Assembly: GCA_028282925.1 (NCBI GenBank)
Contig: JANQGV010000001.1
Span: 1-60,464, forward strand
DNA: 60,464 bases
Reading direction: 5' to 3'
Origin: Thermodesulfobacteriota bacterium
GTDB taxonomy: Bacteria > Desulfobacterota > WTBG01 > CAIYCZ01 > CAIRTM01
Positions within the stretch are counted from its first letter, which is position 1. Each line of letters begins with the position of its first letter. This document shows, in pieces, positions 11,186 through 45,984 of the stretch. The notes under the pieces are model-generated. The model was not told where the DNA came from, made no database searches, and was given only the letters and a program-made list of their open reading frames with translations. Made by a program: the position numbers and the translations under genes.

Positions 11186-11311
11186 TGTGACATGGGGAGT
11201 ATTTACCTCTTTAGGAAAAAACTGCAAAGGCAGGCCGGAACAGTATGGAGAGTTGAATGGCAACTGATGGATCCTTTGAAGGGTGAATGAAATAATTCAG
11301 GCAGTGGAGTA

Positions 11312-12649
11312 ATGGCAGATTTCAGTATGAGAAAAAAATCACAAAGTTTCGCATATCAAAAAAAAGCAAAGAAGTGTATCCCAGGCATGACTCAACTGCT
11401 TTCAAAACGACCTGATCAGTTTTCTTATGGTGTTTGGCCTGGCTATTACAGTAAAGCCGAAGGTGTGCAGATATGGGATCTTGACGGTAACAGGTATATT
11501 GATATGAGTATTTCTGGGATAGGAGCGAATGTGCTTGGTTACGCCGACCCTGATGTGGACAGTGCGGTAAGAAATGCCATTGCTCATGGAACCAGTTGTA
11601 CTCTCAACTGTCCCGAGGAAGTGGAATTGGCAGAGCTGATGTGCGATCTCCATTCGTGGGCAGATATGGCACGGTTTGCACGCACCGGTGGTGAAGCAAT
11701 GGCAATTGCGGTAAGGATAGCGCGGGCTGCTACCGGTAAGGATACAGTTGCTTTTTGCGGGTACCATGGCTGGCATGACTGGTACCTGGCAGCAAATCTT
11801 GGTACCGAGAATGCTCTTGGAGAACATTTGCTGCCAGGGCTGAATCCGTCAGGTGTTCCCAGGGGCCTTGCAGGCACAGCTCTTCCTTTTCGTTATAATC
11901 ACCTGGAAGATCTGGAAGTTATTGTGGATGAGCATGCGGAAACTATTGGGGCCATCATCATGGAGCCTATACGCAGTGAACACCCCATTCCCGGTTTCAT
12001 TGAAGGAGTTCGCGCACTGGCAGATAGAATAAATGCTGTTTTGATTTTCGATGAAATTTCTGCGGGCTTTCGGCTTTCCGCCGGAGGCGCCCACCTTGTT
12101 ATTCATTCCGTAACACCTGATGTTGCAGTTTTTTCCAAGGCCTTGGGAAATGGCTATCCTGTTGCGTCCATTATCGGCAGGGATGCTGTAATGGAGGCGG
12201 CACAGCAAACATTTATCAGCAGCACCTACTGGACTGAGCGGATCGGTCCGGTTGCGGCCCTGGCTACGATACATAAATTTCGAAAGCATAATGTTGCGAA
12301 ACACCTGGTGCACGTAGGTGAGTTAATACAGGAAGGGTGGCGCGAGGCGTCCGGGGAAACCGGCTTGGATATAGCCATCGGTGGTATACCACCGTTGAGC
12401 CATTTTGTCTTTCAGGGAAATAAGGCCTTAACCCTAAAGGCATATTTTGTACAACTTATGCTGGAACGAGGTTTTCTGGCATCAAACCTTTTTTATGCAA
12501 TGTATGCACATTCTCATGAACATGTTGACCAGTATCTGAATGCAGTACGGGAAAGTTTTACGGAGATTTCCCATGCACTTGCAAGCAATGATATTGAAAA
12601 AAAACTAGAGGGTGACCCGGCATCTGCTGGATTTAAACGACTTACCTGA
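11312..12649 (+). CDS. Class-III PLP aminotransferase, glutamate-1-semialdehyde aminomutase-like
   Basis: Fold-type I class-III aminotransferase (445 aa). It has GGEAMAIAVRIARAATG, YHGWHDWY, LIFDEISAGFR and the PLP lysine in VFSKALGNGYP (about K276), which resemble glutamate-1-semialdehyde aminomutase. Here it lies between pseC/aldo-keto reductase and pseF, not with heme genes, so an amino-sugar or amino-keto substrate is more likely than heme synthesis. Homologues recur in nonulosonate loci without a firm function. GGAG lies 4-7 bases before the ATG. The 126-bp gap upstream holds nothing recognisable. Confidence 0.83.
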   Translation: MADFSMRKKSQSFAYQKKAKKCIPGMTQLLSKRPDQFSYGVWPGYYSKAEGVQIWDLDGNRYIDMSISGIGANVLGYADPDVDSAVRNAIAHGTSCTLNCPEEVELAELMCDLHSWADMARFARTGGEAMAIAVRIARAATGKDTVAFCGYHGWHDWYLAANLGTENALGEHLLPGLNPSGVPRGLAGTALPFRYNHLEDLEVIVDEHAETIGAIIMEPIRSEHPIPGFIEGVRALADRINAVLIFDEISAGFRLSAGGAHLVIHSVTPDVAVFSKALGNGYPVASIIGRDAVMEAAQQTFISSTYWTERIGPVAALATIHKFRKHNVAKHLVHVGELIQEGWREASGETGLDIAIGGIPPLSHFVFQGNKALTLKAYFVQLMLERGFLASNLFYAMYAHSHEHVDQYLNAVRESFTEISHALASNDIEKKLEGDPASAGFKRLT

Positions 12650-12717
12650 AATCAGTAGCGTGTGACATAACTCATTAGGATTGGTTTTTTTAATTTTTTC
12701 TTCGCAAACGGAAAGAG

Positions 12718-13452
12718 ATGAAAATAGCAATTATCCCGGCACGAGCCGGCAGTAAACGAATTGCAAATAAAAACATTATTGATTTTTGCGGTAAGCCGAT
12801 GATTGCATACGCCCTGGATGCAGCCGGCCGGGCGAACCTTTTTGACAAGGTGCATGTTTCAACGGATTCCGAGCATATTAAAACCCTTGTGGAAGATATG
12901 GGTTGCGTAGTTGATTTTATGAGGCCGGTTCATCTTGCGGATGACCAAACGGGTCTCATTGCCGTTCTTCAATGGGTCCTTGAGGAATATTCGTCTATGG
13001 GGCTGGAGTTTCAAGACGTCTGTTGCCTGATGCCGTCTTGTCCGTTAATTGATCCGGGGGATATTGTGAAGGGATATGAAAAATATCTGTTTCATGAAAA
13101 ACAATTCCCGTTGCATGTAGTAGCACCGTATCCTGTGCCCATTGAATGGGCTTATCGGAAAAGTGAAGAAGGCTTTCTGACGCCGGTCAATGCCGGTATG
13201 TTTGCATGTCGTTCGCAGGACCTTCCGAAAGCATATTTTGAATCAGGTCCGTTCTCGATATTTCACCGTTCGCATCTGCTGCGTGATAATCCGGTTTCGG
13301 ATGAGAATTTTATTTCAATTATGCTGCCCCCCGGAAAAGCGGTCGACATAGATGATGCCGACGGCCTCAGGCTTGCGCAACAGCTTTATCTGGGACGTAA
13401 GGTAGCCGGTAATCCTGAGCTTATGCAGCAACTCTGCAGCGAAACGGAATAG
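12718..13452 (+). CDS. pseF: Pseudaminic acid cytidylyltransferase
   Basis: Activates pseudaminic acid with CTP to CMP-pseudaminic acid, the donor for glycosyltransferases. The N-terminal IAIIPARAGSKRIANKNI is the CMP-sugar synthetase signature, followed by CCLMPSCPLIDPGDI and VDIDDADGLRLAQ. The length (244 aa) is normal, and it lies directly upstream of pseG and pseI. AGAG precedes the ATG. CMP-sialic or CMP-legionaminic synthesis is less likely because PseB, PseC and PseG are all present. Confidence 0.9.
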   Translation: MKIAIIPARAGSKRIANKNIIDFCGKPMIAYALDAAGRANLFDKVHVSTDSEHIKTLVEDMGCVVDFMRPVHLADDQTGLIAVLQWVLEEYSSMGLEFQDVCCLMPSCPLIDPGDIVKGYEKYLFHEKQFPLHVVAPYPVPIEWAYRKSEEGFLTPVNAGMFACRSQDLPKAYFESGPFSIFHRSHLLRDNPVSDENFISIMLPPGKAVDIDDADGLRLAQQLYLGRKVAGNPELMQQLCSETE

Positions 13453-13507
13453 TTTCGTGCAGCCTGTGCCTGCTGATGATTAGTAAACCATTGGGTATCA
13501 GTCTTCG

Positions 13508-14650
13508 GTGAACATGTTTTCTGAAAGTCATGAGGGAAAAACGTTATGCGGAGAGTCTATCACCTGTCGTCCCGAGTGGGTTTTCCGTGTCGATGCTTCT
13601 GAAGCTACAGGTATGGGGCACCTGTTCCGGTGCCTTAGTTTGTCGGACATTGTTCAGGAGGCCGGTTATTCTGTTCGATTTCTGATGAAGCATTCTGCTT
13701 CGGCGAGTATTGCCTTGCTTGAAAAAAAAGGAGTCCCCTATGCTGTATTTGAAAAAACAGTAACATTTGAAGAAGAGGGGAAGCTTTTTAGAGCGGAAAG
13801 AAATCCAAACTCTGTAATTATTTTGGATATTTCCCATGGTATTACCTTTTCAGAAATAGTGCAGGTCGAAAATTATGTAAAGTTGCTGCGACAGTGCTGT
13901 TTGAAAGTTGTGGTGATTGACGGGTATATGCAGAATGCTTTGCTGAATTGTATCCCCTTGGCAGCCGATGTGGTGATAACTCCGTATTACCCGGCTGAAA
14001 GTATATCTCCGCATGGAGAAAAAGGATTTGTTCATCTCGCAGGACCTGAATATATGATTTTTCATCCTGATTATGAAACAATACCCAGCGGTGCTCGATC
14101 AATTTCTTCTACGGTTCGAAAAATTCTTATTACCTGCGGGGGCTCTGACCCCAAAAGTCTAACACTGGAGGCACTTAAAGGCCTTGACCAGATAATGGAT
14201 TATGAGCTTGAAATTCGCATAGTAATAGGGCCAAGCTTTAATGAAGGCTTGAAAAAAAAGATAGAGGAAACGGCAGGGGGGATGACGCATAACTGTACAT
14301 GTATCGAGTCGCCGGCTTCATTGGTTAATTGTATGCGCTGGTGTGATCTTGCTGTAAGCAGTACCGGCTTGACAAAATATGAACTGGCTCTTACTGGAAC
14401 TCCCGCTGTATTTTTCTCTATCGACCGGGAACATGCCGAGATACATGAAAAGTTTCAGGGAGCGGGTACGGGTGTTGATTTGGGAGCAGGTGAAGATGGA
14501 TTACCGGACCGGATTAAGAATGTCGTCGAGAGACTCATCCCTGATTTTGCCGCTCGTTCCGAGATGTCTCGCAACGGAATGAAGCTGGTTAACTGTCGGG
14601 GAGCGCATTTGATTGTTGATACTATAGGGAGGTTGTTACATGCTGGATAA
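13508..14650 (+). CDS. pseG: UDP-2,4-diacetamido-2,4,6-trideoxy-beta-L-altropyranose hydrolase
   Basis: Glycosyltransferase-B fold hydrolase that removes UDP from the bis-acetamido altrose before condensation with PEP. FRVDASEATGMGHLFRCLSL near residues 26-45 is the PseG signature, and ITCGGSDPKSLT plus the C-terminal SSTGLTKYELALTGTP complete the nucleotide site. The frame begins at GTG 13508; ATG 13514 is an alternative and neither has a clear ribosome site. The stop overlaps the pseI ATG by 11 bases. Confidence 0.9.
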   Translation: MNMFSESHEGKTLCGESITCRPEWVFRVDASEATGMGHLFRCLSLSDIVQEAGYSVRFLMKHSASASIALLEKKGVPYAVFEKTVTFEEEGKLFRAERNPNSVIILDISHGITFSEIVQVENYVKLLRQCCLKVVVIDGYMQNALLNCIPLAADVVITPYYPAESISPHGEKGFVHLAGPEYMIFHPDYETIPSGARSISSTVRKILITCGGSDPKSLTLEALKGLDQIMDYELEIRIVIGPSFNEGLKKKIEETAGGMTHNCTCIESPASLVNCMRWCDLAVSSTGLTKYELALTGTPAVFFSIDREHAEIHEKFQGAGTGVDLGAGEDGLPDRIKNVVERLIPDFAARSEMSRNGMKLVNCRGAHLIVDTIGRLLHAG

Positions 14651-15650
14651 AGAATTTTTTATCGGGAAACATCTCATTAAAAACGGCAATGAACCTTTTG
14701 TTATTGCCGAGGCGGGGTCCAACCATAACCAATCATTTGATACCGCACGCAAACTGATAGATGCAGCTGCAGAGGCCGGTGCACAAGCCGTCAAGTTTCA
14801 ACTGTTTTTAGCGGATGAACTGTACCCCTGTGATCATGCATTGTATCCTGTATTCAAGTCGATCGAACTTAATCGTGACTGGGTACACAAGCTTGCCGAA
14901 CATGCTGCGGGAGAGGGGATCTGTTTTTTGGCCTCCGCCTTTGATCCCGAAGGGGTTGACTTGCTTTCCGATGTAGGGGTCGCAGCCTTTAAGGTTGCAT
15001 CTTCTGAAATTGTTAACTTTCCGTTGCTGGCCTGTATGTCCCGTAAGGGATCTCCGCTGCTTGTCTCGACCGGGATGTGTGATCTTGTTGATGTTATTGA
15101 GGCGGTAGAGTTCTGTGAACAACTGGGGCAAACATCGCTGGGGATTTTGCAATGCGGTGCCGAATATCCTTTGCCCCCGGACAATGTGCATCTGCGGGTG
15201 ATGGATGTATTGCGTTCCATGTTTTCATGCCCGGTAGGGTTTTCCGACCATACAACAGGTTTTGGCGCAGCCGCAGCCGCAGTGGCACGGGAAGGCTGCG
15301 TTATTGAACGTCATTTTACGCTGGATAAAAAGGCTGATGGGCCGGATCATTTTTATGCAATGGAACCCGGTGAGCTGAAGCAGTTGGTTGCGATTTTACG
15401 CGAAGTATACCAATCTCTGGGGCAATCACAAAAGAACATGCTCCCAAGCGAAAAAAAGGCCGGCCGACGAGAGGGGCTGTATGCGGCCCGAGATTTAAAG
15501 GCAGGTGAGATTATCGCCCTGGACTGTGTCGCCGTACAAAGGCCTGCACCCGGGTTGCGTAAAAGACATCTGGATAAGATCGTCGGATGCACTCTTGCGA
15601 AAGACATATGTAAAGATGAGCCGTTAGACTGGAACAGTATTCAATTTTAA
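14640..15650 (+). CDS. pseI: Pseudaminic acid synthase
   Basis: NeuB-family synthase that condenses the PseG product with phosphoenolpyruvate to make pseudaminic acid. The TIM barrel shows FVIAEAGSNHNQSF, GAQAVKFQ, VSTGM, LQCGAEYPLP and GFSDHTTG, and a C-terminal SAF (antifreeze-like) domain covers the last about 60 residues (ARDLKAGEIIALD). At 336 aa it is full length. Its start lies inside pseG, so the two are coupled. Confidence 0.92.
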   Translation: MLDKEFFIGKHLIKNGNEPFVIAEAGSNHNQSFDTARKLIDAAAEAGAQAVKFQLFLADELYPCDHALYPVFKSIELNRDWVHKLAEHAAGEGICFLASAFDPEGVDLLSDVGVAAFKVASSEIVNFPLLACMSRKGSPLLVSTGMCDLVDVIEAVEFCEQLGQTSLGILQCGAEYPLPPDNVHLRVMDVLRSMFSCPVGFSDHTTGFGAAAAAVAREGCVIERHFTLDKKADGPDHFYAMEPGELKQLVAILREVYQSLGQSQKNMLPSEKKAGRREGLYAARDLKAGEIIALDCVAVQRPAPGLRKRHLDKIVGCTLAKDICKDEPLDWNSIQF

Positions 15651-15690
15651 AAATTCAACAATAAATAAGTTTTAACTGGAAAAGCGTGCT

Positions 15691-16380
15691 ATGGGTTTAA
15701 AAAACCTGATTATTTTCGGAACCGGCGAAATAGGGCGGTTGGCGCGCTACTATTTTGATAATGACAGTCCTTATGCTGTTGTCGGCTTTACCGCCGATGA
15801 CCGTTATGTAGAAGACACGTCCTGCTGCGGATTGCCGCTGGTACCCTTCAGTCAGGTGCAGAACGTTTTCCCGCCGGATACCTGTGCTATGCACGTTGCG
15901 CTTTCTTATGCAAAACTTAACCAGACACGGGCCGAGAAATATTATGCGGCCAAAGAGGCGGGTTACAATCTTGCGTCGTATGTGTGCTCAAGGTCGGTGT
16001 TTTGGGATGATCTGGAAATGGGTGATAACTGTTTTATCCTTGAAAATCAGACAATTCAACCAACGGTTGCAATCGGCTCTAATGTTATGATTTGGAGCGG
16101 TAATCATATCGGTCACGGCAGTGTCGTAGGAGATCATACGTATATCAGCAGTCATGTGTGTTTGTCAGGGCATAGCGTTATTGGGACGCATTGTTTTTTT
16201 GGAGTGAACTCTGCAACAAAAGATTTTATTGCAGTAGGCGACCGTGTTTTTGTTACCATGGGATCAATTGTTACGGCAGATGTTGAGGATGGGGGAGTGG
16301 TGCTTGGTGCCAAAGGTGATGTTTTGCAGTCTTCTTCACCTGAGGCAATAGATATAAAAAGAAAATATTTTTATTTATAA
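15691..16380 (+). CDS. NeuD/PglD-like sugar O- or N-acyltransferase
   Basis: Two-domain acyltransferase (229 aa): an N-terminal Rossmann-like part (IIFGTGEIGRLARYYF) binds the sugar nucleotide, and a C-terminal left-handed beta-helix of hexapeptide repeats (about 115-200: GSNVMIWSGNHIGHGSVVGDHTYISSHV) binds acetyl-CoA. The fold is that of NeuD, PglD and related enzymes. It follows pseI, so O-acetylation of the nonulosonic acid is likely; N-acetylation (a PseH-type role) cannot be excluded. Confidence 0.8.
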   Translation: MGLKNLIIFGTGEIGRLARYYFDNDSPYAVVGFTADDRYVEDTSCCGLPLVPFSQVQNVFPPDTCAMHVALSYAKLNQTRAEKYYAAKEAGYNLASYVCSRSVFWDDLEMGDNCFILENQTIQPTVAIGSNVMIWSGNHIGHGSVVGDHTYISSHVCLSGHSVIGTHCFFGVNSATKDFIAVGDRVFVTMGSIVTADVEDGGVVLGAKGDVLQSSSPEAIDIKRKYFYL

Positions 16381-30807: not shown

Positions 30808-31842
30808 ATGACGTTAGCATCACCTCAGAAAATTCATCATGCGCTATTAAAGGCCAGGAATAAAAAGCCAGGTAGAGGAATTAAACAACGGATGGTGCGC
30901 TGTGCAGCTCTTGCTCTCGAAAAGTGTATCGAATCGCGGTTGATTCGCAAGGTGCGAAATACACTCAGGACGGAAGACAAAGTTCTCAGGAAATATGACG
31001 CAATGGCCGGCAGCTATATTGATGATTATAACATCCTGTTGACAAGCGGCAACGAAATACTTACTGTTTATGACGGTGTTTTTGATATTGTTCCTTACAA
31101 TGAGCTGTCTGAAAAATATTTTTCTTATATTTCGAAAAACATATTGGAACCGCTCGAGCCGCAAAAGAAATGCACTATTGAAATTGGGGCGGGTGAGTTG
31201 ACGACAAGTATTGCCTTTGCCCAGCGAGTCAAATTTTCGGAAATATCAGCACTGGAACTCTCCTGGTCTCGTATTGCGGCAGGCAGACAGTTTGCCGAAT
31301 CCAAGCAGGTTGACTTTACCCATCTTTTGGCTGGAACAGCTCTTGATTTGCCTTTGAGTGACAATTCGTTTGATATCGTCATTACCAGTCATTGTCTTGA
31401 GCAGATTCCAATGCATGTCCACAAGGTTTTATCTGAACTCTACCGTGTCAGTCGTGAATACATAGTCTTGCTGGAACCGTCCTATGAGCTGGGTGATTCA
31501 TATCAAAAAATGTGTATGAAAAGAAAGCATTTTGTTCGCGGCCTTGACAAAATTATCCGTGAACGAGGGTATCGACTTGAGCGCCATGAGCTGTTACCGT
31601 ACTGCTGGTCCTTCAAAAACCGGACGGCATTATACTTGATTAAAAAGGAGGTGTCCGGCAGCCGGCGACCTATTGTAGATAAACTTGCATGTCCTCTATG
31701 TAAAGAATCGCTCTTTAAGCCCGATCACCAATTCTATTTTTGTAAATCCTGCGGGATTTTGTATCCAGTGGTTGGCGGTATCCCTTGTCTAAACCCCGCA
31801 AACGGTATCCTGGCAACAAAATATGAGCAGTTTTCTTCCTGA
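30808..31842 (+). CDS. SAM methyltransferase with C-terminal Trm112-like zinc ribbon
   Basis: 344 aa. A class-I methyltransferase core has TIEIGAGELTTSIAFAQR (motif I), DLPLSDNSFDIVITSHCLEQI (motif IV region). The last 50 residues form a Trm112-like ribbon (LACPLCKESLF, YFCKSCGILYPVVGGIPCL). It directly precedes the CysC-like kinase of the proposed phosphoramidate module, so it is a candidate for the O-methylation step (inference); sugar or lipid methylation is also possible. A good AGGAGAG ribosome site precedes ATG 30808. Confidence 0.78.
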   Translation: MTLASPQKIHHALLKARNKKPGRGIKQRMVRCAALALEKCIESRLIRKVRNTLRTEDKVLRKYDAMAGSYIDDYNILLTSGNEILTVYDGVFDIVPYNELSEKYFSYISKNILEPLEPQKKCTIEIGAGELTTSIAFAQRVKFSEISALELSWSRIAAGRQFAESKQVDFTHLLAGTALDLPLSDNSFDIVITSHCLEQIPMHVHKVLSELYRVSREYIVLLEPSYELGDSYQKMCMKRKHFVRGLDKIIRERGYRLERHELLPYCWSFKNRTALYLIKKEVSGSRRPIVDKLACPLCKESLFKPDHQFYFCKSCGILYPVVGGIPCLNPANGILATKYEQFSS

Positions 31843-31914: not shown

Positions 31915-32427
31915 ATGGTTATATGGATTATAGGGTTGGCTGGAAGCGGTAAAACAACCATAGGAACGCAATTGTACGAGCGGCTCAAGCCTGAGACGCG
32001 TAATCTTGTCTTTATAGATGGCGACATGATCCGGGAGATAATGGGAAACGACCTGGGACATACGGTTGCCGACCGGAAAAAGAATGCCGATAGAATCTGT
32101 AATTTGTGCAGGGCACTGGAACAACAGGACATCAATGTCATTGCCTGTGTTCTGTCGCTTTTTCATGAATCCCAGGAGTGGAACCGTAATACCTATAAAC
32201 AGTACTTTGAAATTTTTATCGATGCTTCGATGGATACCCTTTTGCAGCGTGATCAGAAGGGACTCTATTCCGGTGCCCGGAACGGAACTATTCAGGACGT
32301 TGTAGGTGTTGATATACCCTTTGCGCCTCCTCGAAATCCGGACTGTGTGATTGATAATAATAGTAGTTGTGAAGACTTCAGCCAGATTGTAGATGATATC
32401 ATGCGGGTTCTTCCCCCATTGAAATAA
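31915..32427 (+). CDS. CysC-like kinase, probable cytidine diphosphoramidate kinase (Cj1415 type)
   Basis: P-loop kinase (170 aa) of the adenylyl-sulfate kinase fold: GLAGSGKTT (Walker A, residues 7-15), FIDGDMIREIM, HTVADRKKNADRI and RDQKGLYSGARNGTIQDVVGVDIPF. It is shorter than usual CysC proteins (about 200 aa). No sulfate-activation genes are adjacent, but glutamine-kinase, cytidylyltransferase and hydrolase genes are. In Campylobacter jejuni the homologous Cj1415 phosphorylates the 3'-OH of cytidine diphosphoramidate. That role is therefore more likely than PAPS formation, though PAPS supply for the local sulfotransferases cannot be excluded. AGG lies upstream of the ATG. Confidence 0.72.
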   Translation: MVIWIIGLAGSGKTTIGTQLYERLKPETRNLVFIDGDMIREIMGNDLGHTVADRKKNADRICNLCRALEQQDINVIACVLSLFHESQEWNRNTYKQYFEIFIDASMDTLLQRDQKGLYSGARNGTIQDVVGVDIPFAPPRNPDCVIDNNSSCEDFSQIVDDIMRVLPPLK

Positions 32428-33704
32428 TGCCGACAATGTATACGGTTACCGTGATAATTGTATGCGCAGTCGTTATTGATCTGTGCGCTATCCTTGTTGT
32501 CACCTGGTTGAAGCGAGATTTCCAGTGGCTGATAACGGGTGCCGACGAGTGCCCGCAGATAGACAGCGGATCTCTGCAGCGTTTTCTTAAGCATGGATAT
32601 GACCCGGTTTTGGGTTGGGAGCGCAAAGCCGGCACAATGAAGAGAGAAGAGGTCAAATCCGTCGGCGAACAACGGCGTCATTTCATTGAAACAAGCTATG
32701 CAATTAATGAACACAAAGCCCGTTTGAATCCCGGGCATGAAAACCTGCCCGTCGTGATCACCACCTATGGTGATTCCTTTGCTTTTGCACGGCATGTGAA
32801 TGACGATCAGACCTGGCAGTGGCATTTGTCCCGAAAAACAGGGACAAATGTTGTTAATTTGGGGGTGGGCAACTACGGTCTTGACCAGGCCCTGGTGCGC
32901 CTTAAGCGGGAATATCCTCGCCAAAACAGCAGGATTGTCATTATGATGGTTGTTCCTGAAACCATCAGCCGCATTGTAAATGTTTGGAAACATTATTCAG
33001 AATATGGTAACACCCTGGGGTTTAAGGGGCGTTTTTTTAAGACAGACGGTGCACTTCAATGGCTGGATACCCCCATTGACCGTCCCGAAGAGTACCAGAA
33101 CATTTCCGCCCACCTTGATCGGATTCGGGAAATTGATATCTGCTATCAAAAGAAATTTCGCAACGATATTATTAGATTTCCGTACAGCCTGTCTCTCTTG
33201 AGGAATTGCTCCCGGCATTTTCCCCTTGTGGGCGCTCTGGTTGTGCGAAAACTGTATGCACTTTGCGGGTGCTACGACGAACATGTGCTCAACAGGCCCT
33301 GGAAACTGGTTTTGAAACGAAACTTTGCATTTACGCATGAACTATATAAGCAAAATGAACCAGCCGAGCTTTTATGTGATGTTATTGATGCATTCAGCGA
33401 GTTTGTCTGCGACAATGGCAGCACACCCGTGCTGGTGTTCGCGCCTTACCGCCAGGATGTTGATTTTATTGTGAAACAGTATCATTTTTATCAACATGTG
33501 GTTGAGCATTCCGCCCGGAAAATGATCACCGTTGATTTGAGCGATGCTATTCGACAGCACACCACCTTGGATGAATTGTATGTAAGCAGATTTTACGGAG
33601 CCCACTTCAGCGATTACGGTAACCGATTTGCGGCAGAGAGTCTTTATTCAGAGCTTGTCAATAAAGGGGTTCTAGATAAGGACAGCTCGACAGGTGCTTC
33701 CTGA
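32427..33704 (+). CDS. SGNH/GDSL-hydrolase-like protein with N-terminal membrane anchor
   Basis: 425 aa with one hydrophobic anchor at about residues 5-27 and an SGNH fold: TYGDSFAF (block I serine), GVGNYGLDQAL (Gly and Asn blocks) and FYGAHFSDYGN with a terminal His. Homologues act as esterases or O-acyl transferases on glycans. The start codon overlaps the kinase stop (TAATG), so it is coupled to the phosphoramidate genes. It may add or remove a substituent on the polysaccharide; which one is unknown. Confidence 0.75.
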   Translation: MPTMYTVTVIIVCAVVIDLCAILVVTWLKRDFQWLITGADECPQIDSGSLQRFLKHGYDPVLGWERKAGTMKREEVKSVGEQRRHFIETSYAINEHKARLNPGHENLPVVITTYGDSFAFARHVNDDQTWQWHLSRKTGTNVVNLGVGNYGLDQALVRLKREYPRQNSRIVIMMVVPETISRIVNVWKHYSEYGNTLGFKGRFFKTDGALQWLDTPIDRPEEYQNISAHLDRIREIDICYQKKFRNDIIRFPYSLSLLRNCSRHFPLVGALVVRKLYALCGCYDEHVLNRPWKLVLKRNFAFTHELYKQNEPAELLCDVIDAFSEFVCDNGSTPVLVFAPYRQDVDFIVKQYHFYQHVVEHSARKMITVDLSDAIRQHTTLDELYVSRFYGAHFSDYGNRFAAESLYSELVNKGVLDKDSSTGAS

Positions 33705-33740
33705 AACCGGCTTTGATATAGGTATCGTAAACGGCCAATC

Positions 33741-36700
33741 ATGAATATGAAACCGAAAACAAACAAAGCAAAAGCAATTATCCTCGGGGGTTCCCGGGGT
33801 GTGCGCTATCTTGACCCCAACAAAAGTTATCCCCGCTCCCTTCAAGAGGTAAGCCCCGGCAGCAGGGCGCTGGACTGGACCCTGCATGCATTTGACGCCC
33901 AGGGAATAACAAGAGAACAGATTGTTTTTGTGGGCGGGTACCACGTTGAAAAGGTTATTAAGGCATATCCCGGCATGAAGTATTATTTTCACGAGGCCTG
34001 GGACCGGGAAAAGCAGGGTGAGGCCCTGAAGCTGGCACGCAAGGAGCTTGATGGCCCCTGCTTCATTTGCGATACTAATGTTGTTTTTAGAGACAGGGCT
34101 TTGGAAAAGCTGTCGGAGGTCACGGCAGACATTGTGATCGGTAGTGTTACAGGTGCGCAGAATGAAAAGATGCAAGAAGGTCAGGTAGGCCTGATATGTT
34201 TGAGCGCTGCAGGGTCAAGCGCCCTGCAGGGTTTTCTGGATACCGATACAGCAGGTGAAAAAGATCTGGCGGAAATCTGGACATGTATGGACACATATGG
34301 TGTAACCGTGCAGTCGGTGGACATCAGCAGTGACTGTGCCGTGCTGTCCGATTTGGAAGCACTATCTCGTTTTGTTCTGGGTAGCAAGGCCCAAACACTT
34401 GAACGGCTGCAGCCAGTTCTTAAACATGCAACGGTGCTTCCGCAGGTCAGGTTTTCCCCTCATGAGTGGTATGATGACCGAAAATCCATTATGGTTCGTA
34501 TCTGTGAGAACCTGAAAGATGACAGGCTGGTAGTACGCAGCAGTGCCGGCAGTGAAGATTCATGGGAATCTTCACAGGCAGGAAGGTATACCAGCGTGCT
34601 GAACGTTGACGCCTCTTCGGAAAAGGAACTTGCCGATGCCGTCGACACGGTTATCAGGGCCTATTGTGTCGAAGAATCTTCGCCCGAATGCGACAGTCAT
34701 GAAGTGTTTGTTCAGCCCTGCCTGACGGATGTTGCTTTAAGCGGGGTGATTTTAACCCGCGACCTTGATACGGCAGCCCCCTATTATATTATGACGATTG
34801 ATCGTTCGTCCGGGCGTACTGATTCTGTAACCGGCGGTGACGGCCAGGAAGTTGAAACGTTTGTTTGCTATAAAAACACGCAACAGCCGTTGTCGGCGCC
34901 GTTTCTTGAAAAGCTTGTAGATCTGGCGCGGGAGCTGGAGGACCTTCTGGAACACGACAGTCTTGATATAGAATTTGCCGTTGATGAAAACGATGTTTAT
35001 TATGTGCTGCAAGTCCGGCCGTTGTTGCACAACAATAAGCGGACAGGTCTTGTTGACAGCGATTTTGAAGAAGAGTTGCAGCAGGTTCGTGTTTTTGTGG
35101 ATGATCTGATGCAGCCCAGCACGTATGTGCACGGGCGAAAAACCCTTCTCGGAAATATGCCCGACTGGAATCCGGCCGAAATTATCGGCACGGCACCCCG
35201 GCCCCTTGCCCTTTCGCTTTACCAGACGCTGATTACCGATGCCGCCTGGGCTCAGGCGCGCAGCCTGATCGGCTATCGTGATGTAACGGGCGAGCCGCTG
35301 CTGGTTTCACTGGCCGGCGTGCCTTATATCGATTTAAGAGCAAGCTTTAATTCATTCCTGCCTGCGTCGCTTGGTGACGATACGGCAGCTCGTCTGGTGG
35401 ATGTCTACCTGGCTCTCCTCAGTGCAAAGCCGAATCTGCACGATAAGATTGAATTCGAAATTGCCATAACCTGCCTGAGTTTTGATTTTGAAGAACAGAT
35501 CGGCCGTCTGCAGGAAGCCGGCCTTTCCGGTGAAGATATTTCTGCTTTGCGAGGGAGCCTGCTGCAACTAACCGATTCAATTCTCTGCGGGGATGTTTCA
35601 CCATATGACGAACTTGTCGACAGCATCAAACTGCTGTCTCAGTCGAGGGACAAACTGATCGGGCAGCCGGTTGCTGTCAGGCAAATTCCGCGAACCATAA
35701 CATATCTGGTGCGGGACTGTATCCGGTACGGCACCATTCCCTTTTCTGTATTGGCGCGCTACGCCTTTATCGCTATCAGTATTCTAAAATCGTTATCGGC
35801 ACGCGGCGTTTTTTCCGATAACGAATACCACGAATTGATGAATAGTATTCCCACCATTGCCTCACAAGTGTCACGGGACCTGTATTTGCTGGGCCAGGGG
35901 GAGATGCCCGAAGAGACTTTCAGTCGTACCTACGGTCACCTGCGGCCGGGAACGTATGATATCACTTCGCCTAATTATGCCCGCATGACGGATGTGTTTA
36001 AACAATCGGCTTTCCCTGCCGGTGCGGAGTGTTCTGGAGCGGATGCCTGCACCCACAACAGCGAAAAGGCCCGCCGTATCCTGTTGAATAAACAACAACA
36101 GATTACCGCCTTGCTGCAGGAATGCGGTTTTTCCTGTGCGGCAGACAAACTGATTGATTTCATTCTGCACGTTATCCCGGGAAGGGAATGGGCGAAATTT
36201 GAATTTACCAAAAACATCAATGCCGTTCTCGAACTGGTTGCCGAGTATTGCGGTGCCCTGGGATTCTCCCGGGAAGAAGCATCGTATCTTTCTATTGAGA
36301 GAATCATGCGCCTGGCAACCGATAGTCCATCGTACACAACCGCCATGCGTTTACAGCGGTTGATCGGCCTGGAAAGCAAGCGGCATTCGCTTACTGCGTC
36401 TCTGCGCCTGCCCCATTTTATTGCCGGTGTGAATGACCTCAATGCATTTCAGCTGCTGCAGTGGCAACCAAACTTTATAACGCGCAGGTGTGTAACGGCA
36501 GGGGTGGTCGACCTGGACCAAAATCCTGAGCCGGATTACATCGAAGGGAGTGTGGTGCTGATTGAAAGTGCCGATCCGGGTTTTGACTGGATATTCAGCT
36601 ACCGGCCGGCCGGACTCATTACCCAATATGGCGGGGCCGCATCGCATATGGCTATTCGATCTGCTGAGTTCAACCTGCCTGCAGCTATCGGCTGTGGAGA

Positions 36701-36779
36701 TCTCCTGTTTGAACGGGCAAAACGTTCGCGCAGAGTTGAGCTTGATTGTGCCAACAAGAATTTGAGATTTATTCTGTAG
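33741..36779 (+). CDS. Fusion: nucleotidyltransferase-like domain plus PEP-synthase-like L-glutamine kinase (Cj1418 type)
   Basis: 1012 aa. Residues 1-235 resemble a nucleotidyltransferase (AKAIILGGSRG at the start), but the usual GxGTR and PK motif are altered (GGSRGVRYL, YPRSL). About 245-450 is a PPDK/PEP-synthase-type ATP-binding domain (RLVVRSSAGSEDSWES, VLQVRPLL). The C-terminus (about 930-1012) is a phosphohistidine swivel domain with ASHMAI, catalytic His at about 969. The latter two parts match the Campylobacter L-glutamine kinase Cj1418, which phosphorylates the amide of glutamine at the start of O-methyl phosphoramidate synthesis. No pyruvate/PEP-binding barrel of a full PEP synthase is seen. 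The N-terminal fusion is unusual. Neighbouring genes encode the other steps. Confidence 0.8.
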   Translation: MNMKPKTNKAKAIILGGSRGVRYLDPNKSYPRSLQEVSPGSRALDWTLHAFDAQGITREQIVFVGGYHVEKVIKAYPGMKYYFHEAWDREKQGEALKLARKELDGPCFICDTNVVFRDRALEKLSEVTADIVIGSVTGAQNEKMQEGQVGLICLSAAGSSALQGFLDTDTAGEKDLAEIWTCMDTYGVTVQSVDISSDCAVLSDLEALSRFVLGSKAQTLERLQPVLKHATVLPQVRFSPHEWYDDRKSIMVRICENLKDDRLVVRSSAGSEDSWESSQAGRYTSVLNVDASSEKELADAVDTVIRAYCVEESSPECDSHEVFVQPCLTDVALSGVILTRDLDTAAPYYIMTIDRSSGRTDSVTGGDGQEVETFVCYKNTQQPLSAPFLEKLVDLARELEDLLEHDSLDIEFAVDENDVYYVLQVRPLLHNNKRTGLVDSDFEEELQQVRVFVDDLMQPSTYVHGRKTLLGNMPDWNPAEIIGTAPRPLALSLYQTLITDAAWAQARSLIGYRDVTGEPLLVSLAGVPYIDLRASFNSFLPASLGDDTAARLVDVYLALLSAKPNLHDKIEFEIAITCLSFDFEEQIGRLQEAGLSGEDISALRGSLLQLTDSILCGDVSPYDELVDSIKLLSQSRDKLIGQPVAVRQIPRTITYLVRDCIRYGTIPFSVLARYAFIAISILKSLSARGVFSDNEYHELMNSIPTIASQVSRDLYLLGQGEMPEETFSRTYGHLRPGTYDITSPNYARMTDVFKQSAFPAGAECSGADACTHNSEKARRILLNKQQQITALLQECGFSCAADKLIDFILHVIPGREWAKFEFTKNINAVLELVAEYCGALGFSREEASYLSIERIMRLATDSPSYTTAMRLQRLIGLESKRHSLTASLRLPHFIAGVNDLNAFQLLQWQPNFITRRCVTAGVVDLDQNPEPDYIEGSVVLIESADPGFDWIFSYRPAGLITQYGGAASHMAIRSAEFNLPAAIGCGDLLFERAKRSRRVELDCANKNLRFIL

Positions 36780-36793
36780 AGAAAGAGTGCCGA

Positions 36794-37450
36794 ATGAAAA
36801 CAGTCCTGGTGACGCCGAGAATTGAAGACGTTGCAGCATATTCAGAAACCCGTGAATGTGTGGACGTGCGCTGGGGTAAGCTCCTCCATGAAATGGGCTT
36901 TCTCCCCATGACTGTATCCTTACACTCGCCCATTGACGAGTTATTTCAGGCCGTGGAGATTGCAGGAGTTATTTTTACCGGCGGCAATAACTTATGCCAG
37001 GTCGAGCCGAATCGCCTGTCCGAGATGCGCGACCGGTTTGAAAAGAGGCTTCTTGACGCAGCCCTGGAGCAAGGGGTGGCGGTTATCGGCGTTTGCAGGG
37101 GAATGCAGCTCCTGGCGTCACACTTCGGAGGTGAGCTGGTTCAGGTCGAGGGGCATGTTGCCCAGCGGCATGCCCTTGTTTTGGAGAAAGGGGCATGGTG
37201 TGAACCGTTTTTGAACCGGCAGACAAGTGTTAACTCATATCATGGCTGGGGAATACGTGAAATGCCGGCCCCGCTCAAAACGGCGGCCAGGTCTGCGGAA
37301 GGGTACGTTGAAGCGGCGTATGACCCGTCCCGACCGGTTTGGGGCATGATGTGGCATCCCGAGCGGGAGGATCCATTCCGTTTGTCGGAAATGGAACTGC
37401 TTTCTTATGTTTTGAACAAAGACTATTTATTTCAGAACAGTATAGTGTGA
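36794..37450 (+). CDS. Class-I glutamine amidotransferase-like hydrolase, probable gamma-glutamyl-CDP-amidate hydrolase (Cj1417 type)
   Basis: 218 aa, in the PuuD-like class-I glutaminase family: the nucleophile lies in VIGVCRGMQLLA (about C101) and the His/Glu pair in MMWHPERE (about 187-190), with IFTGGNNL near the start. I use ATG 36794 because the frame upstream lies inside the kinase gene. In Campylobacter, Cj1417 of this family cleaves glutamate from CDP-glutamine to release cytidine diphosphoramidate; the linkage to a glutamine kinase and cytidylyltransferase supports this over gamma-Glu-GABA hydrolysis. It ends 7 bases before the next ATG. Confidence 0.78.
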   Translation: MKTVLVTPRIEDVAAYSETRECVDVRWGKLLHEMGFLPMTVSLHSPIDELFQAVEIAGVIFTGGNNLCQVEPNRLSEMRDRFEKRLLDAALEQGVAVIGVCRGMQLLASHFGGELVQVEGHVAQRHALVLEKGAWCEPFLNRQTSVNSYHGWGIREMPAPLKTAARSAEGYVEAAYDPSRPVWGMMWHPEREDPFRLSEMELLSYVLNKDYLFQNSIV

Positions 37451-37457
37451 AACAATC

Positions 37458-38369
37458 ATGGTACCGTATCTGAAGCGGCTGCGGGAACTGGTCGCAGGTA
37501 AAAAAAAATATAGACAGTATGCAGAAGTGTTTGACGCCCCTGAGGTTTCACGTGAAGGCAAATCGCTGGTTTTGGGTTTTGGTGCCGGACGCTGTGGTCA
37601 GCGGTGGCTCTCGGATATTTTCGATCAGCATGAAAACTGCTGCAGTCATCCGGAACCTTTTTCAGAGCAGGAGAGTTTTTTCAGGTATGTAACATGGCAC
37701 AAGCTGGCTATAGATATGGGCGGTTTTCATGCTCTGATGCTGGCGGCTGCAAATTGGGACTGGAACCGGGCCGATATTTCCGCTTTTTTCAGTCCCTTCT
37801 ATTCTTTTGGCGTTGCTGAACTGGTAGAGCGGCTCCAGCCGACCCATCTTTTTTTTAATATCCGCAAACCCGAAGACTGTGTCAACTCATTATATGTCAA
37901 GGGATGGTATGCCGGCACTTTTACTCCTCCCGCTGCAGGAAAAATTTCCGGGCCACAGCCCCTGCATGCCAGGGGGCTTCACCGTAATTTCAGCCGTATC
38001 ACGCCTTCCGGTGAAGAATGGACACAATGGCAGGGTCTAAGCCGTATTGGTAAGATTGCCTGGTATTATGTTACCGTCAATACGGCGATTTTGAAGGCCC
38101 TTGACGAGATCGGATCAGTTAAAAAAGTTATTATGAAACTTTCTGATATTGACCAGAACTATGATTATTATCAATACCTGGCCGACTATATGCAGTTGCG
38201 GCCGGTTTTGTCTCATGAACGTTTTGCGTGTTTGAAGGGCCAGGCCTCAAATGTTCAGAAACGCAAACACCGCGTGCAGGATTGGAGCAGTCAGGAGAAA
38301 AGAGAATTTGAAGAAATCGTAGGACCTTTTTATGCTACCTACGACAGCTTACAGACAACCGGAATATAA
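37458..38369 (+). CDS. Sulfotransferase-fold protein in the phosphoramidate module
   Basis: 303 aa. FGAGRCGQRWLSDIF (about residues 40-54) corresponds to the 5'-phosphosulfate loop and NIRKPEDCVNSLY (about 133-145) to the 3'-phosphate-binding motif of sulfotransferases. It lies 7 bases after the hydrolase and just before the cytidylyltransferase, inside the proposed phosphoramidate gene set. Because the donor of that pathway is a 3'-phosphonucleotide like PAPS, this protein could transfer phosphoramidate instead of sulfate (inference). A plain PAPS sulfotransferase remains the conservative call. Confidence 0.65.
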   Translation: MVPYLKRLRELVAGKKKYRQYAEVFDAPEVSREGKSLVLGFGAGRCGQRWLSDIFDQHENCCSHPEPFSEQESFFRYVTWHKLAIDMGGFHALMLAAANWDWNRADISAFFSPFYSFGVAELVERLQPTHLFFNIRKPEDCVNSLYVKGWYAGTFTPPAAGKISGPQPLHARGLHRNFSRITPSGEEWTQWQGLSRIGKIAWYYVTVNTAILKALDEIGSVKKVIMKLSDIDQNYDYYQYLADYMQLRPVLSHERFACLKGQASNVQKRKHRVQDWSSQEKREFEEIVGPFYATYDSLQTTGI

Positions 38370-38391
38370 ACATACTGGAAAGCAGACTGAT

Positions 38392-39126
38392 ATGGTAACA
38401 GGAATTGTTTTGGCAGCAGGGGAAGGAACACGCTTACGTCCGTATACTGAAAAGGTCCCGAAATGTATGGTGCCGTATAAAGGCAAACCACTGCTTGACT
38501 ACATTGTGGAAACTTTTCACCAGGAAGGTGTGAACGACCTGGTTCTGGTGCGAGGCTATAAGGGAGAGACCATCCAGCGGACAGATCTGCAGTACTATAC
38601 CAACGAAGACTATGATCGGACAAATATGGTGTATACGCTTTTCTGTGCCGAGGATGCTCTGCGAGGGGATGTGATTATTTCATATGGTGATATTATTTAC
38701 AGGCCGGAGGTGTTGCAGGCTCTGTTAAAAAGTAACTATGACTTTTCCGTTGTCGTCGACAGCGAGTGGCGGGCGCTGTGGGAGCAGCGCATGAGTAATC
38801 CTCTCGACGATGCAGAAACAATGAAACTGGACGCTTCCGGAAAGATAGTTGAGCTCGGCAAGAAACCAAAATCATATGATGAGATACAGGGGCAGTATAT
38901 TGGGCTCATAAAAATCGGTGCACATGCAATTGACAAGGTGAGGCAGTTTTATCACGCCATGGGTAAAGAGAAAATGTATGACGGCAAAGACTTCAATAAC
39001 ATGTATATGACTTCATTTATCCAGGAGGTAATTGATAACCTGATGCCTGTCCATGCTGTTTCGATTGCCGGTGGGTGGCTTGAATTCGATTCCGTTGAAG
39101 ATCTCGCGCTGGAGTTTATCGGTTAA
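38392..39126 (+). CDS. Nucleotidyltransferase, probable CTP:phosphoglutamine cytidylyltransferase (Cj1416 type)
   Basis: 244 aa with the canonical GIVLAAGEGTRLRPYTEKVPKCM signature split across residues 4-26, then NMVYTLFCAEDAL, DVIISYGDIIY and a terminal GGWLEFDSVEDL motif typical of phosphocholine-type cytidylyltransferases. The frame is open upstream, but ATG 38392 lies after the previous stop and has GGAAAG before it. In Campylobacter the Cj1416 homologue makes CDP-glutamine from CTP and phosphoglutamine; the neighbours here support that. Phosphocholine or another alditol phosphate is the alternative. Confidence 0.75.
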   Translation: MVTGIVLAAGEGTRLRPYTEKVPKCMVPYKGKPLLDYIVETFHQEGVNDLVLVRGYKGETIQRTDLQYYTNEDYDRTNMVYTLFCAEDALRGDVIISYGDIIYRPEVLQALLKSNYDFSVVVDSEWRALWEQRMSNPLDDAETMKLDASGKIVELGKKPKSYDEIQGQYIGLIKIGAHAIDKVRQFYHAMGKEKMYDGKDFNNMYMTSFIQEVIDNLMPVHAVSIAGGWLEFDSVEDLALEFIG

Positions 39127-41296: not shown

Positions 41297-43765
41297 TCAA
41301 CCAAGTTGTTGGAAGACGTCGGAAGTAGGGATGTTTTTAAGCCGCTCTGAAATAGTATGTCCGGCTTTGGTATTCTGTGTAAGCAACATGTCTAAGGCGC
41401 TCAAAAGTTTTTCAGTTTCCAGGGGCTTTTGAATGTCAAAATAACAATCGAGTTGCCCGCAGAGTTTTAGTAATTCATGATATTTGTCGGCCCACCCGAT
41501 AACCAGGGCCGGAATCCCGTTTTTGTAAGCATGGACTATGGAATGGTAGCGTGATGCTATTATGAAGTCAAATTGCCTGATGGCATGTTCCAGTTCGATT
41601 GCATTCAGGTCACTGCTTACCAGTCGGACCTGTTCGTTATCGGGAAAAAATGTTTTAATGCCTTCACACAGCGGTGCGTCTTTAGAGGAATGACCCAGTA
41701 TATATACTGTTTTGTCTGTCGACAGCAGCTTTTCGATAAGGGTCCGGTACATGGCGTACATGGCATCGCTTTCCGTTCTTTGTAATACTTTCTCGTTGGG
41801 GATGATGCCGATTGATTGAGGCGCGATGCGGATTTTATGCAACACCGGATCCCGGGTAAACAGATTGGTAAGGGTATAGTCTCGACCGGTAAGGACAATG
41901 TCACAGGATTTTTCAGCATTCTGTTTTGTGAATTGTTTAATTAAACGCAGGCTTTCGCTTTCGCGGGCAAAAATTTTAGCGGGATAGGTGAGATACTTTT
42001 TAAACAAAGGAAAAAGAATAAGCTTGTGTATGAGCGGATACTGAAAAGGGCCGATTGACTGCGGAAGAATATAGTAGGGGATGCCGATTGACTTGGCCAG
42101 TAGAATATTCAGTATGTAAGAAAGGGAGATCTGAAAGCCCCAGGCTGAGGAAAGCTGGTAGCCGCTAATGTCGATGCAAAAGGCCGCTTGTTTTACAATA
42201 TTGATACATTCACCTTCGGCATGTGCGATTCCACGACGCTGAATTGAACGTATGAGCCTCGACTTAGTGTTCATGTCGGCGGGAAGGATGCCAAAGGAAA
42301 ACCGTTCTTTTTCAGAAGCTGATCGCTTGTAATCCGGCGTAGAGCAGAGATACATTTTTTTTCCGGGAAATCGGTTTTTGAGGCTGTTGATTGCCGTAAA
42401 GGTCATGGCCTGGGCGCCTTTGTTGAAAAGTTCGCCCCCGAAAATAAGTACAACATCGCCGCCCTGTTTTGGCTTTGAGGGCCGGAATGTGAGATCTGAT
42501 CCGAATGCGGCTGCAACCCTGCTGAAGAGAACACCCCTGCGAACAAGCTGGAGCGCTTTTGCACGCACCTTAGTCAGCAGAAGCGCCAGGTGTATTCTAT
42601 GGATGCGGTATTCCTGTCCCCATCGGATATGTCGCTCGCGGCGTTTTAGTTCGTCGGTTGCCTGAGTGCTCGCGGAAGAAGGCGCAGAATCAATGTTGAG
42701 ATTGTGCCGAGTTTTGAATATCGAGGTGAATAGTTCGTTTTTCCGTTTAGCATGCAGGTTTTGTGACTGCCGGATTGTTTCAATGCTTTCCTGGGCGACT
42801 TCAAACTGCTCAAGATGTTTTTCAAGGACGGTAGCTCCCTTATCGGTTCGTACAATGATGCTGGAAGTGCCCTGGCGGCTGCCTTTGGCTGTAACATAAC
42901 AGTCGCCGCAGGCAATGTCTGCTCTACTGTTGAGTTTGTCGCAGCAAAAGAGACATCTTTTGAGTTGAAAGAAGGGTTTGAGTTGCATTCTGATTTTGCG
43001 ATCGACAAAGGCTTCTCTGCCGGATGAAAAAACCAAGCGTGTGTGGCCCGGCCATCCGGAGTTTTCCTTTGAGCGGAAAACAAGATGGGAGAGGGTCTCA
43101 CCCGGCCTGCGGTACTTGTCGGCAAAATATGTTATGATGTTCTGGTTGAGTGTTTTGTCGCAGAACAGGCCAAGGAACAAGAGATTTTGTTCGCTCATGC
43201 CGCTATGTGCTATGTGCTTTTTGATCCCCAGGAACTGGCAGGGGGTACCCACGATGATGTACCGTTTATCCTCCATTTTTTGCAGGGATTTAATTACCTC
43301 GTAAACCGAAGCCGGTATATATTTTGATTTGGCGGATTGTATGACGGTATCAATTGATTCTGTTTTGTTCAGACGAGGCGGTTTTTCAGAGAATGGGGTC
43401 GCATTCAAAACGAAGGCGGCATCATACTCCGCTGAATCAAGCAAGGCGACGATGAGACCTGTTATGATGCCTCCGCTGGTGGCGTGAGTGCGAATATCCT
43501 GGTTTTTGCAGTAAGCGCTGTATGCCTGGCGGCAGGGGCCGTCGGGGCTGTGGGTGGCAGGGAGGCTTCCCTGGCTGAAGTCAATGCCGGGACACAGCTT
43601 TAAGCATAAACCGCACTCTGAACAGCGGTCGGTCAGGATGCGGGGCAGGAACTGTCCCGCTGTAAACTGCATGGATACAGCTTGGTGTGGGCAGATGGCC
43701 GCGCATATTTCACACGACAGGCACAGGCCAAGATCACGAGTCTGCTTTACGATGTTGCTGTTCAT
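41297..43765 (-). CDS. Fusion: ferredoxin/FrhB-type coenzyme F420-like oxidoreductase plus polysaccharide pyruvyl transferase
   Basis: 822 aa. Two 4Fe-4S motifs (CLSCEICAAICP at 14-25 and CSECGLCLKLCP at about 43-54) precede an FrhB/FdhB-type N- and C-terminal region (about 80-340: ATSGGIITGLI, VGTPCQFLGIKKH, RCLFCCDKLNSRADIACGDC). The C-terminal half (about 440-790) is a polysaccharide pyruvyl transferase (LIFGGELFNKGAQAM, ILPQSIGPF, ASRYHSIVHAYKNGIPALVIGW). Each part usually stands as a separate gene in glycan loci; the fusion links a redox domain to ketal or pyruvyl modification. The gene runs against its neighbours. Confidence 0.82.
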   Translation of the reverse strand: MNSNIVKQTRDLGLCLSCEICAAICPHQAVSMQFTAGQFLPRILTDRCSECGLCLKLCPGIDFSQGSLPATHSPDGPCRQAYSAYCKNQDIRTHATSGGIITGLIVALLDSAEYDAAFVLNATPFSEKPPRLNKTESIDTVIQSAKSKYIPASVYEVIKSLQKMEDKRYIIVGTPCQFLGIKKHIAHSGMSEQNLLFLGLFCDKTLNQNIITYFADKYRRPGETLSHLVFRSKENSGWPGHTRLVFSSGREAFVDRKIRMQLKPFFQLKRCLFCCDKLNSRADIACGDCYVTAKGSRQGTSSIIVRTDKGATVLEKHLEQFEVAQESIETIRQSQNLHAKRKNELFTSIFKTRHNLNIDSAPSSASTQATDELKRRERHIRWGQEYRIHRIHLALLLTKVRAKALQLVRRGVLFSRVAAAFGSDLTFRPSKPKQGGDVVLIFGGELFNKGAQAMTFTAINSLKNRFPGKKMYLCSTPDYKRSASEKERFSFGILPADMNTKSRLIRSIQRRGIAHAEGECINIVKQAAFCIDISGYQLSSAWGFQISLSYILNILLAKSIGIPYYILPQSIGPFQYPLIHKLILFPLFKKYLTYPAKIFARESESLRLIKQFTKQNAEKSCDIVLTGRDYTLTNLFTRDPVLHKIRIAPQSIGIIPNEKVLQRTESDAMYAMYRTLIEKLLSTDKTVYILGHSSKDAPLCEGIKTFFPDNEQVRLVSSDLNAIELEHAIRQFDFIIASRYHSIVHAYKNGIPALVIGWADKYHELLKLCGQLDCYFDIQKPLETEKLLSALDMLLTQNTKAGHTISERLKNIPTSDVFQQLG

Positions 43766-45114: not shown

Positions 45115-45984
45115 CTATTCAATTTCTGAATCGGTGATAAAATCCTTCCACTGATCCGGTATCCTGCCTGTGAAGCTTTTGAGGGCAAGCACCTCCCGGC
45201 TGAAAGAAGATTGCAGTTGGCCCCGGTCCTGCATGCTCAGCGGCGGAGCCTTTGATGTCAAGAATTTTTCATAGAATACGTTGAATAACGAATTGTTTTT
45301 TAAGAGCCTTGTCAGGGTTCTGCTTTTGACTATTATGTTTCGCGCTTTGTACAGGAGGGGGTAGCGAAACATTTTATTTTTGCTGCTCGGCAAGGTTGTA
45401 AGCTTCATGGGCGGCACACCGAAAAAAGAGAGGATTTCGGCAATGGCATGATCCGTGTTTGCTGTAAATTCTTCGAAGAAGATTATTTTGAACTGCGACG
45501 GATCGAAAGCGCTCAGCCAGTTTTTTTCAAGGATGGTGTAATAGCATCCGCGTTCCAGGTAGTTGGGGTAGCGCTCGATAAAGTCGATGAATTTTTTCGG
45601 CATTTCAGGATATTTGTCACTGTTGTTTTTAAAGAAACCGTTTTGCAGGTGCATCAAGTAGTGAGAGTAGACATAATCGATGGGGTTTCTGAGGATGACT
45701 AGAAATTTCGGATGCTGGTCCTGCAGTGCGGCTTTAATCCGGGGGGCGACCTCGTGACCCATTTTGAAGTATACGGGAGAGGTGTCGATGCGCAGACCGT
45801 TCTGCGGGAAGGTGTCGGCATACCAGCCGGTTCCGCGCTGAAAGTTGTTTGAATAAAAACTCACTTCCTGAAATGTGCTGAGTGATATGTCGGGATGTGC
45901 TTTCAGCAGGTTATACAGGTAGGTGCTCCCGGCGCGTTGTGTGCCGATATGAAAGTGCAGTGGTAATGCCATGCGGTTACTCAT
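45115..45984 (-). CDS. Sulfotransferase (heparan-sulfate type)
   Basis: 289 aa. FHIGTQRAGSTYLYNLLKAHPDI is the 5'-phosphosulfate-binding loop and ILRNPIDYVYSHYLMHL the 3'-phosphate motif, with KEVSFYSNN-like FQEVSFYSNN as in glycan sulfotransferases. It would transfer a sulfo group from PAPS to a polysaccharide hydroxyl, or use a related 3'-phosphonucleotide. The radical SAM gene 21 bases upstream is in the same orientation. Confidence 0.85.
   Translation of the reverse strand: MSNRMALPLHFHIGTQRAGSTYLYNLLKAHPDISLSTFQEVSFYSNNFQRGTGWYADTFPQNGLRIDTSPVYFKMGHEVAPRIKAALQDQHPKFLVILRNPIDYVYSHYLMHLQNGFFKNNSDKYPEMPKKFIDFIERYPNYLERGCYYTILEKNWLSAFDPSQFKIIFFEEFTANTDHAIAEILSFFGVPPMKLTTLPSSKNKMFRYPLLYKARNIIVKSRTLTRLLKNNSLFNVFYEKFLTSKAPPLSMQDRGQLQSSFSREVLALKSFTGRIPDQWKDFITDSEIE

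Follow-up and report, generated by a model that had tools for sequence, protein, structure and literature searches.

A six-gene run in a polysaccharide region

We analysed a DNA stretch of 60,464 nucleotides (the window) from contig JANQGV010000001.1 of a Thermodesulfobacteriota bacterium (assembly GCA_028282925.1), whose genome is 5.6 Mb in size and 96% complete. The segment at 31915-39126 contains six genes in a single plus-strand run (Table 1). Four of them encode a CysC-like kinase, a phosphoenolpyruvate (PEP)-synthase-like L-glutamine kinase, a PuuD-like hydrolase of the gamma-glutamyl-cytidine diphosphate (CDP)-amidate type and a cytidylyltransferase. In Campylobacter jejuni, cj1415-cj1418 make the donor of O-methyl phosphoramidate (MeOPN), and cj1421/cj1422 transfer it (PMC3907429). 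The route opens with the N-phosphorylation of glutamine, and 3'-phospho-5'-cytidine diphosphoramidate is among the later intermediates (PMC6429109). A preliminary description of the window had reported a four-gene run of this kind. All four open reading frames (ORFs) are intact and lie where it placed them or close by, and its family assignments match the Pfam and NCBIfam results, but it did not mention the two other genes of the run, encoding proteins of 425 and 303 residues, or an extra N-terminal domain in the kinase. The hydrolase ORF as listed opens at a TTG (36746), and its ATG start is at 36794. The similarity of the cytidylyltransferase to its relatives starts at about residue 21-22, near 38392.

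Table 1 Genes of the run and other features of the window.
Feature	Position	Strand	Details
CysC-like kinase, Cj1415 (CDP-amidate kinase) type	31915-32427	+	170 residues; APS_kinase 4e-35; tree, residues, reciprocal best hit
Membrane-anchored SGNH-fold protein, candidate terminal phosphoramidyl transferase or tailoring enzyme	32427-33704	+	425 residues
L-glutamine kinase, Cj1418 type, PEP-synthase-like, with extra N-terminal domain	33741-36779	+	1012 residues; NF004508
Nucleotidyltransferase-like N-terminal domain of the kinase ORF, probably degenerate	33741-34364	+	
Gamma-glutamyl-CDP-amidate hydrolase, Cj1417 type, PuuD-like, class-I amidotransferase fold	36794-37450	+	218 residues from the ATG; Peptidase_C26 7e-26
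Diverged protein with sulfotransferase-like motifs, candidate transferase for a 3'-phosphonucleotide donor resembling 3'-phosphoadenosine 5'-phosphosulfate (PAPS)	37458-38369	+	303 residues
Cytidine triphosphate (CTP):phosphoglutamine cytidylyltransferase, Cj1416 type	38332-39126	+	264 residues; NTP_transf_3 2e-14
S-adenosylmethionine-dependent methyltransferase with C-terminal Trm112-like segment	30808-31842	+	Pfam Methyltransf_11 3e-11
Nonulosonic-acid-type block	8145-16380	+	Polysacc_synt_2, DegT aminotransferase, class-III aminotransferase, CTP_transf_3, NeuB, hexapeptide protein
ORF joining a ferredoxin/FrhB-FdhB (F420 hydrogenase beta) part to a polysaccharide pyruvyl transferase domain	41297-43765	-	822 residues
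Genuine sulfotransferase-family gene	45115-45984	-	within the same glycan region

Enzymes of the predicted donor pathway

Reference proteins came from the order to which a Sulfuricurvum locus belongs: 299 of its genomes were searched with the gamma-glutamyl-CDP-amidate hydrolase model, and 11 exceeded the curated cut-off. Several of these loci read methyltransferase, methyltransferase, kinase, hydrolase, cytidylyltransferase, CysC, and one of them (L124) additionally contains proteins of 610-612 residues where cj1421/cj1422 would stand. The four window enzymes are reciprocal best matches of their Campylobacterales counterparts, with identities of 41-45% for the CysC-like kinase, 33-35% over ~800 residues for the glutamine kinase, 29-31% for the hydrolase and 41-46% for the cytidylyltransferase.

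The glutamine kinase scores 865-866 bits on NF004508 (cut-off 501), and the next protein in the genome reaches ~19 bits. It is 34.6% identical to the L124 kinase over ~800 residues (E-value 1e-158) and keeps both the phosphohistidine motif GGxxSHMAIR and the ATP motif RSSxxSED. Its ~208 extra N-terminal residues, which are not found in the Campylobacterales kinases, resemble a nucleotidyltransferase; they gave no Pfam match at an E-value of 5, and the lysine of their P-K motif is replaced by arginine. A related domain is fused to the kinase in ~30 loci, and in most cases it has lost the signature residues. The domain is probably degenerate, judging from these replacements, and a scaffold or regulatory role would be our guess.

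For the hydrolase, the best NCBIfam model by far is NF045546, "gamma-glutamyl-CDP-amidate hydrolase", on which the next protein in the genome scores 35 bits. Residues Cys101, His188 and Glu190 are conserved with the Campylobacterales enzymes. When the Campylobacterales cytidylyltransferase was searched against the genome, the window gene was found at 46% identity (6e-64) and the runner-up at 4e-13, and the window enzyme has the DGKDFNNMYMTSF motif in common with those of Campylobacterales. The closest solved structure is LicC (1jyk), which would suit a phosphocholine-type modification by a LicC-like cytidylyltransferase. However, the E-value is 3e-16 for this chain, as opposed to ~1e-75 for the Campylobacterales phosphoglutamine type, which rules out a LicC-type enzyme by score, and the gene accompanies the glutamine kinase and the hydrolase in 47 of 49 loci (see below). 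We consider phosphocholine modification extremely improbable.

The L124 CysC, searched against the same genome, finds the window CysC at 45% identity (7.7e-40) and a second CysC at 4.5e-20. We built a tree of 100 CysC sequences from cassettes, Campylobacterales, the window and adenylyl-sulfate (APS) kinases. A 100/100 branch parts 68 cassette, Campylobacterales and window sequences from 31 APS kinases, and the latter include Escherichia coli CysC and the second CysC of the genome, which is canonical. The protein is not a genuine CysC with all its specific residues, the outcome that would have contradicted the preliminary description. In the window protein, the APS-kinase invariants F, P, R and Y are replaced at positions 48, 81, 86 and 135, and the cassette-type residues Q70, N89, Y96, L108, V128 and N147 are present. 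One could still suppose that this protein is a true APS kinase giving PAPS to nearby sulfotransferases, and that its three companions form an unrelated PEP-synthase-, PuuD- and LicC-like set, since the NCBIfam subfamily model PRK05541, named adenylyl-sulfate kinase, is above its cut-off and a genuine sulfotransferase is encoded at 45115-45984. The apsK equivalog model is nevertheless below cut-off, the tree, the residues and the reciprocal hits disagree with this assignment, the genome owns its canonical CysC in addition, and other loci have CysC fused to the glutamine kinase. Its sequence sets the window CysC apart from ordinary APS kinases; on its tree placement and residues we reject a genuine sulfation module, a reading to which we give very little weight.

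Distribution and composition of the cassette

Species genomes were scanned with the kinase alignment, and at least 548 stretches encode relatives of the kinase. The best 80 of them cover ~20 phyla and include five archaeal entries, so that "outside Campylobacter", as the preliminary description had it, was borne out and yet understated. Among these, 49 loci with full flanks were picked by the glutamine kinase alone. Hydrolase and cytidylyltransferase are found in 47 of the 49, and CysC as well in 31. Because selection used the kinase only, this recurrence is independent evidence of one pathway, and together with the E-values to Campylobacterales proteins (1e-32 to 1e-158) it shows that the window run exceeds chance by far. 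In nine of the 80 loci, mostly Acidobacteriota, CysC and glutamine kinase are fused in one ORF (L045, L048, L053, L054, L063, L077, L080, L081 and L098). Reciprocal best hits, the CysC tree, diagnostic residues, catalytic motifs and these neighbourhood statistics agree with the earlier proposal that the four genes correspond to Cj1415-Cj1418 rather than to CysC, PEP synthase, PuuD and LicC.

The gene set is also carried on plasmids of Azospirillum, Vibrio, Pseudohalocynthiibacter and Agrobacterium, and its cultured carriers include Magnetovibrio blakemorei, Haloferax elongans and Cohnella panacarvi. Of 395 genomes from the phylum of the window, only 6 have a full-length kinase, and all 8 from its family lack one, a patchiness that points to horizontal spread or acquisition. 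G+C composition is not decisive (cassette 49%, window 48%).

Partner genes differ between loci. Sulfotransferase genes occur in 13 of 33 loci with CysC versus 0 of 16 without it, and TagB-like genes (CDP-glycerol-phosphotransferase-like) in 4-5 of 33 versus 10 of 16. Cassettes lacking CysC (L064, L066, L070, L074, L085, L093, L099 and others) tend to have the CDP-glycerol phosphotransferase-like gene along with an N-terminal extension of the kinase. This correlation is suggestive, but the kinase tree leaves only four independent pairs for contrast, so that it is not significant and we treat it as a hypothesis. A pair of genes, for an unassigned 175-250-residue family and a formyltransferase-like family, recurs after CysC (L031, L035, L036, L038, L050 and others). 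On an Agrobacterium vitis plasmid (L029, 7914-13003), kinase, hydrolase and cytidylyltransferase genes stand without CysC and are followed by genes for a LysE exporter and a CDP-alcohol phosphatidyltransferase; this cassette possibly has a different end product.

Candidate transferases and possible methylation

The 425-residue SGNH protein has homologues directly after CysC in six loci (L047, L052, L060, L088, L102 and L136). SGNH blocks I, III and V are present, with GDS, GxGNYG and the histidine invariant. Its predicted model (predicted local distance difference test score, pLDDT, 85.5) has a flavodoxin-like fold, with Z-scores of 18.9 to CgnD and ~16-17 to TesA. As the SGNH class takes in group transferases such as PatB, this protein can reasonably be considered for the last transfer, though as no more than a candidate.

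The 303-residue protein carries the motifs GxGRCG and RKPEDCVNS, and hhalign gives 85.7% to sulfotransferases versus 0.1% to an unrelated control. It has no Pfam match, and its single-sequence fold prediction is poor (pLDDT 34.9), so the kinship to sulfotransferases is suggested by the motifs together with a profile match that is weak. As 3'-phospho-CDP-amidate resembles PAPS, an enzyme with a sulfotransferase fold would be apt for the transfer step, and the protein is a possible transferase for such a donor.

Methyltransferases other than the Cj1419/Cj1420 type (see below) are present. The one at 30808-31842 is directly upstream of the CysC-like gene and has a homologue in one other glutamine-kinase locus (L076); it is a candidate for O-methylation of the group.

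Proposed pathway

Given the reciprocal matches, the CysC tree and residues, the locus counts and the spread of the kinase, synthesis of CDP-amidate or 3'-phospho-CDP-amidate by the window enzymes is well supported. We think it highly probable that the run is a horizontally mobile cassette making an activated phosphoramidate, which would end up on a sugar of the surface glycan that the neighbouring genes build. In the proposed pathway, the kinase would N-phosphorylate L-glutamine, the cytidylyltransferase would couple phosphoglutamine to cytidine monophosphate from CTP, and the cysteine hydrolase would take off glutamate to leave CDP-amidate. The CysC-like kinase would then add a 3'-phosphate, giving 3'-phospho-CDP-amidate, an analogue of PAPS. 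For Campylobacter, these four donor reactions are known, and we carry them over to the window enzymes by homology; the later ones are assigned to individual cj1415-cj1418 genes provisionally, after the titles of cited papers. Finally, a transferase probably not of the Campylobacter type, likely the SGNH or the 303-residue protein, would move the phosphoramidate to a surface-glycan sugar. Homology, the tree, residues and gene neighbourhood show which genes these are; for this organism, we infer the reactions, the product, the acceptor and the terminal transferase.

Several observations weigh against this interpretation. The hydrolase scores ~130 bits on NF045546, under the curated cut-off of 250, and the cassette CysC of L059 groups with the APS kinases, as the sole exception in the tree. 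The only homologue of the 303-residue gene sits in a genome without a full-length match to the glutamine kinase. The comparison used Campylobacterales proteins and not those of C. jejuni itself, and we infer that the reference loci belong to Campylobacter. The Campylobacter MeOPN transferase (the 612-residue L124 protein) was found neither by profile in the window nor by a search of the 96%-complete genome, and we set it aside as the transferase of the window; the missing match is weak evidence, as this family varies even within Campylobacterales. Similarly, for a Cj1419/Cj1420-type methyltransferase there was no O-methyltransferase-profile match near the cassette and none in the genome, although such an empty answer is weak. 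With neither of the two found, the O-methyl part of "MeOPN" in the preliminary description did not find support, and the product may be an unmethylated phosphoramidate, or one methylated by the enzyme at 30808-31842.

The target is suggested by the gene neighbourhood to be the surface glycan of this organism. The run sits in a polysaccharide region with glycosyltransferases, sugar-nucleotide and sugar-modifying enzymes, an ABC (ATP-binding cassette) exporter and a nonulosonic-acid block. This block resembles those for pseudaminic or legionaminic acid synthesis. The same donor could instead serve another target, such as a small molecule, a lipid or a flagellin glycan, or be used for transfer without the 3'-phosphate. 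CysC is absent from a third of the loci, the Agrobacterium vitis trio lies next to exporter and phosphatidyltransferase genes away from a glycan cluster, and nonulosonic-acid blocks are of a kind used on flagellins. We regard this as unlikely for the window, in which CysC is present and the neighbours are glycosyltransferases, sugar-nucleotide enzymes and the exporter.

Extending the surface-glycan interpretation to other hosts, we tentatively suggest a widespread, laterally moving phosphoramidate chemistry with interchangeable terminal transferases, which is possible but doubtful at present. Sulfotransferase- or SGNH-fold enzymes might use 3'-phospho-CDP-amidate in cassettes with CysC, and CDP-glycerol-phosphotransferase-like enzymes might use CDP-amidate directly in those without it; in this scheme, the window would belong to the SGNH or sulfotransferase kind.

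According to reviews, MeOPN is known from Campylobacter alone (PMC6429109) and the glutamine kinase is specific to C. jejuni (PMC9561416). The pathway itself is known; what is new is the breadth of hosts, the domain fused to the kinase and the alternative partners. Few biological molecules contain P-N bonds, and a cassette in ~20 phyla, archaea included, suggests a common surface chemistry that was overlooked because every gene goes by a wrong but plausible name. The chemistry reviewed as Campylobacter-specific is thus probably widespread but mislabelled. The cassette provides clear genetic markers for choosing organisms for 31P nuclear magnetic resonance, and it points to protein families that may carry out the last transfer.

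Comparison with known systems

The window shares with the C. jejuni MeOPN system all four donor enzymes, their catalytic motifs, their clustering within a polysaccharide locus and the order kinase, hydrolase, cytidylyltransferase. In contrast, CysC follows the cytidylyltransferase there and is upstream in the window, the window kinase has its extra N-terminal domain, the window run has two additional genes, and the C. jejuni transferase and methyltransferase were not found in the window's genome. Papers on Clostridium botulinum and Legionella were set aside as evidence for the pathway, as phosphoramidate appears only in their citations or discussion.

In cassettes from Omnitrophota, Peregrinibacteria, Propionivibrio and Thioglobus (L047, L052, L060, L088 and L102), CysC is directly followed by an SGNH protein 31-41% identical to that of the window, beside the other three enzymes. 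A methyltransferase gene usually comes after the SGNH gene in these loci, whereas that of the window is upstream and of another type. Within the same phylum, the cassette of genome G033 (L139) has a kinase extended at its N-terminus (core identity 46%), hydrolase, cytidylyltransferase and CysC, but the gene order differs and a clear sulfotransferase-family gene flanks the kinase, replacing the 303-residue and SGNH genes. The lipopolysaccharides of Xanthomonas campestris and Shewanella would resemble an unmethylated product of the window: outside Campylobacter, too, they bear phosphoramidate groups that lack O-methyl on a surface glycan (cited in PMC3907429).

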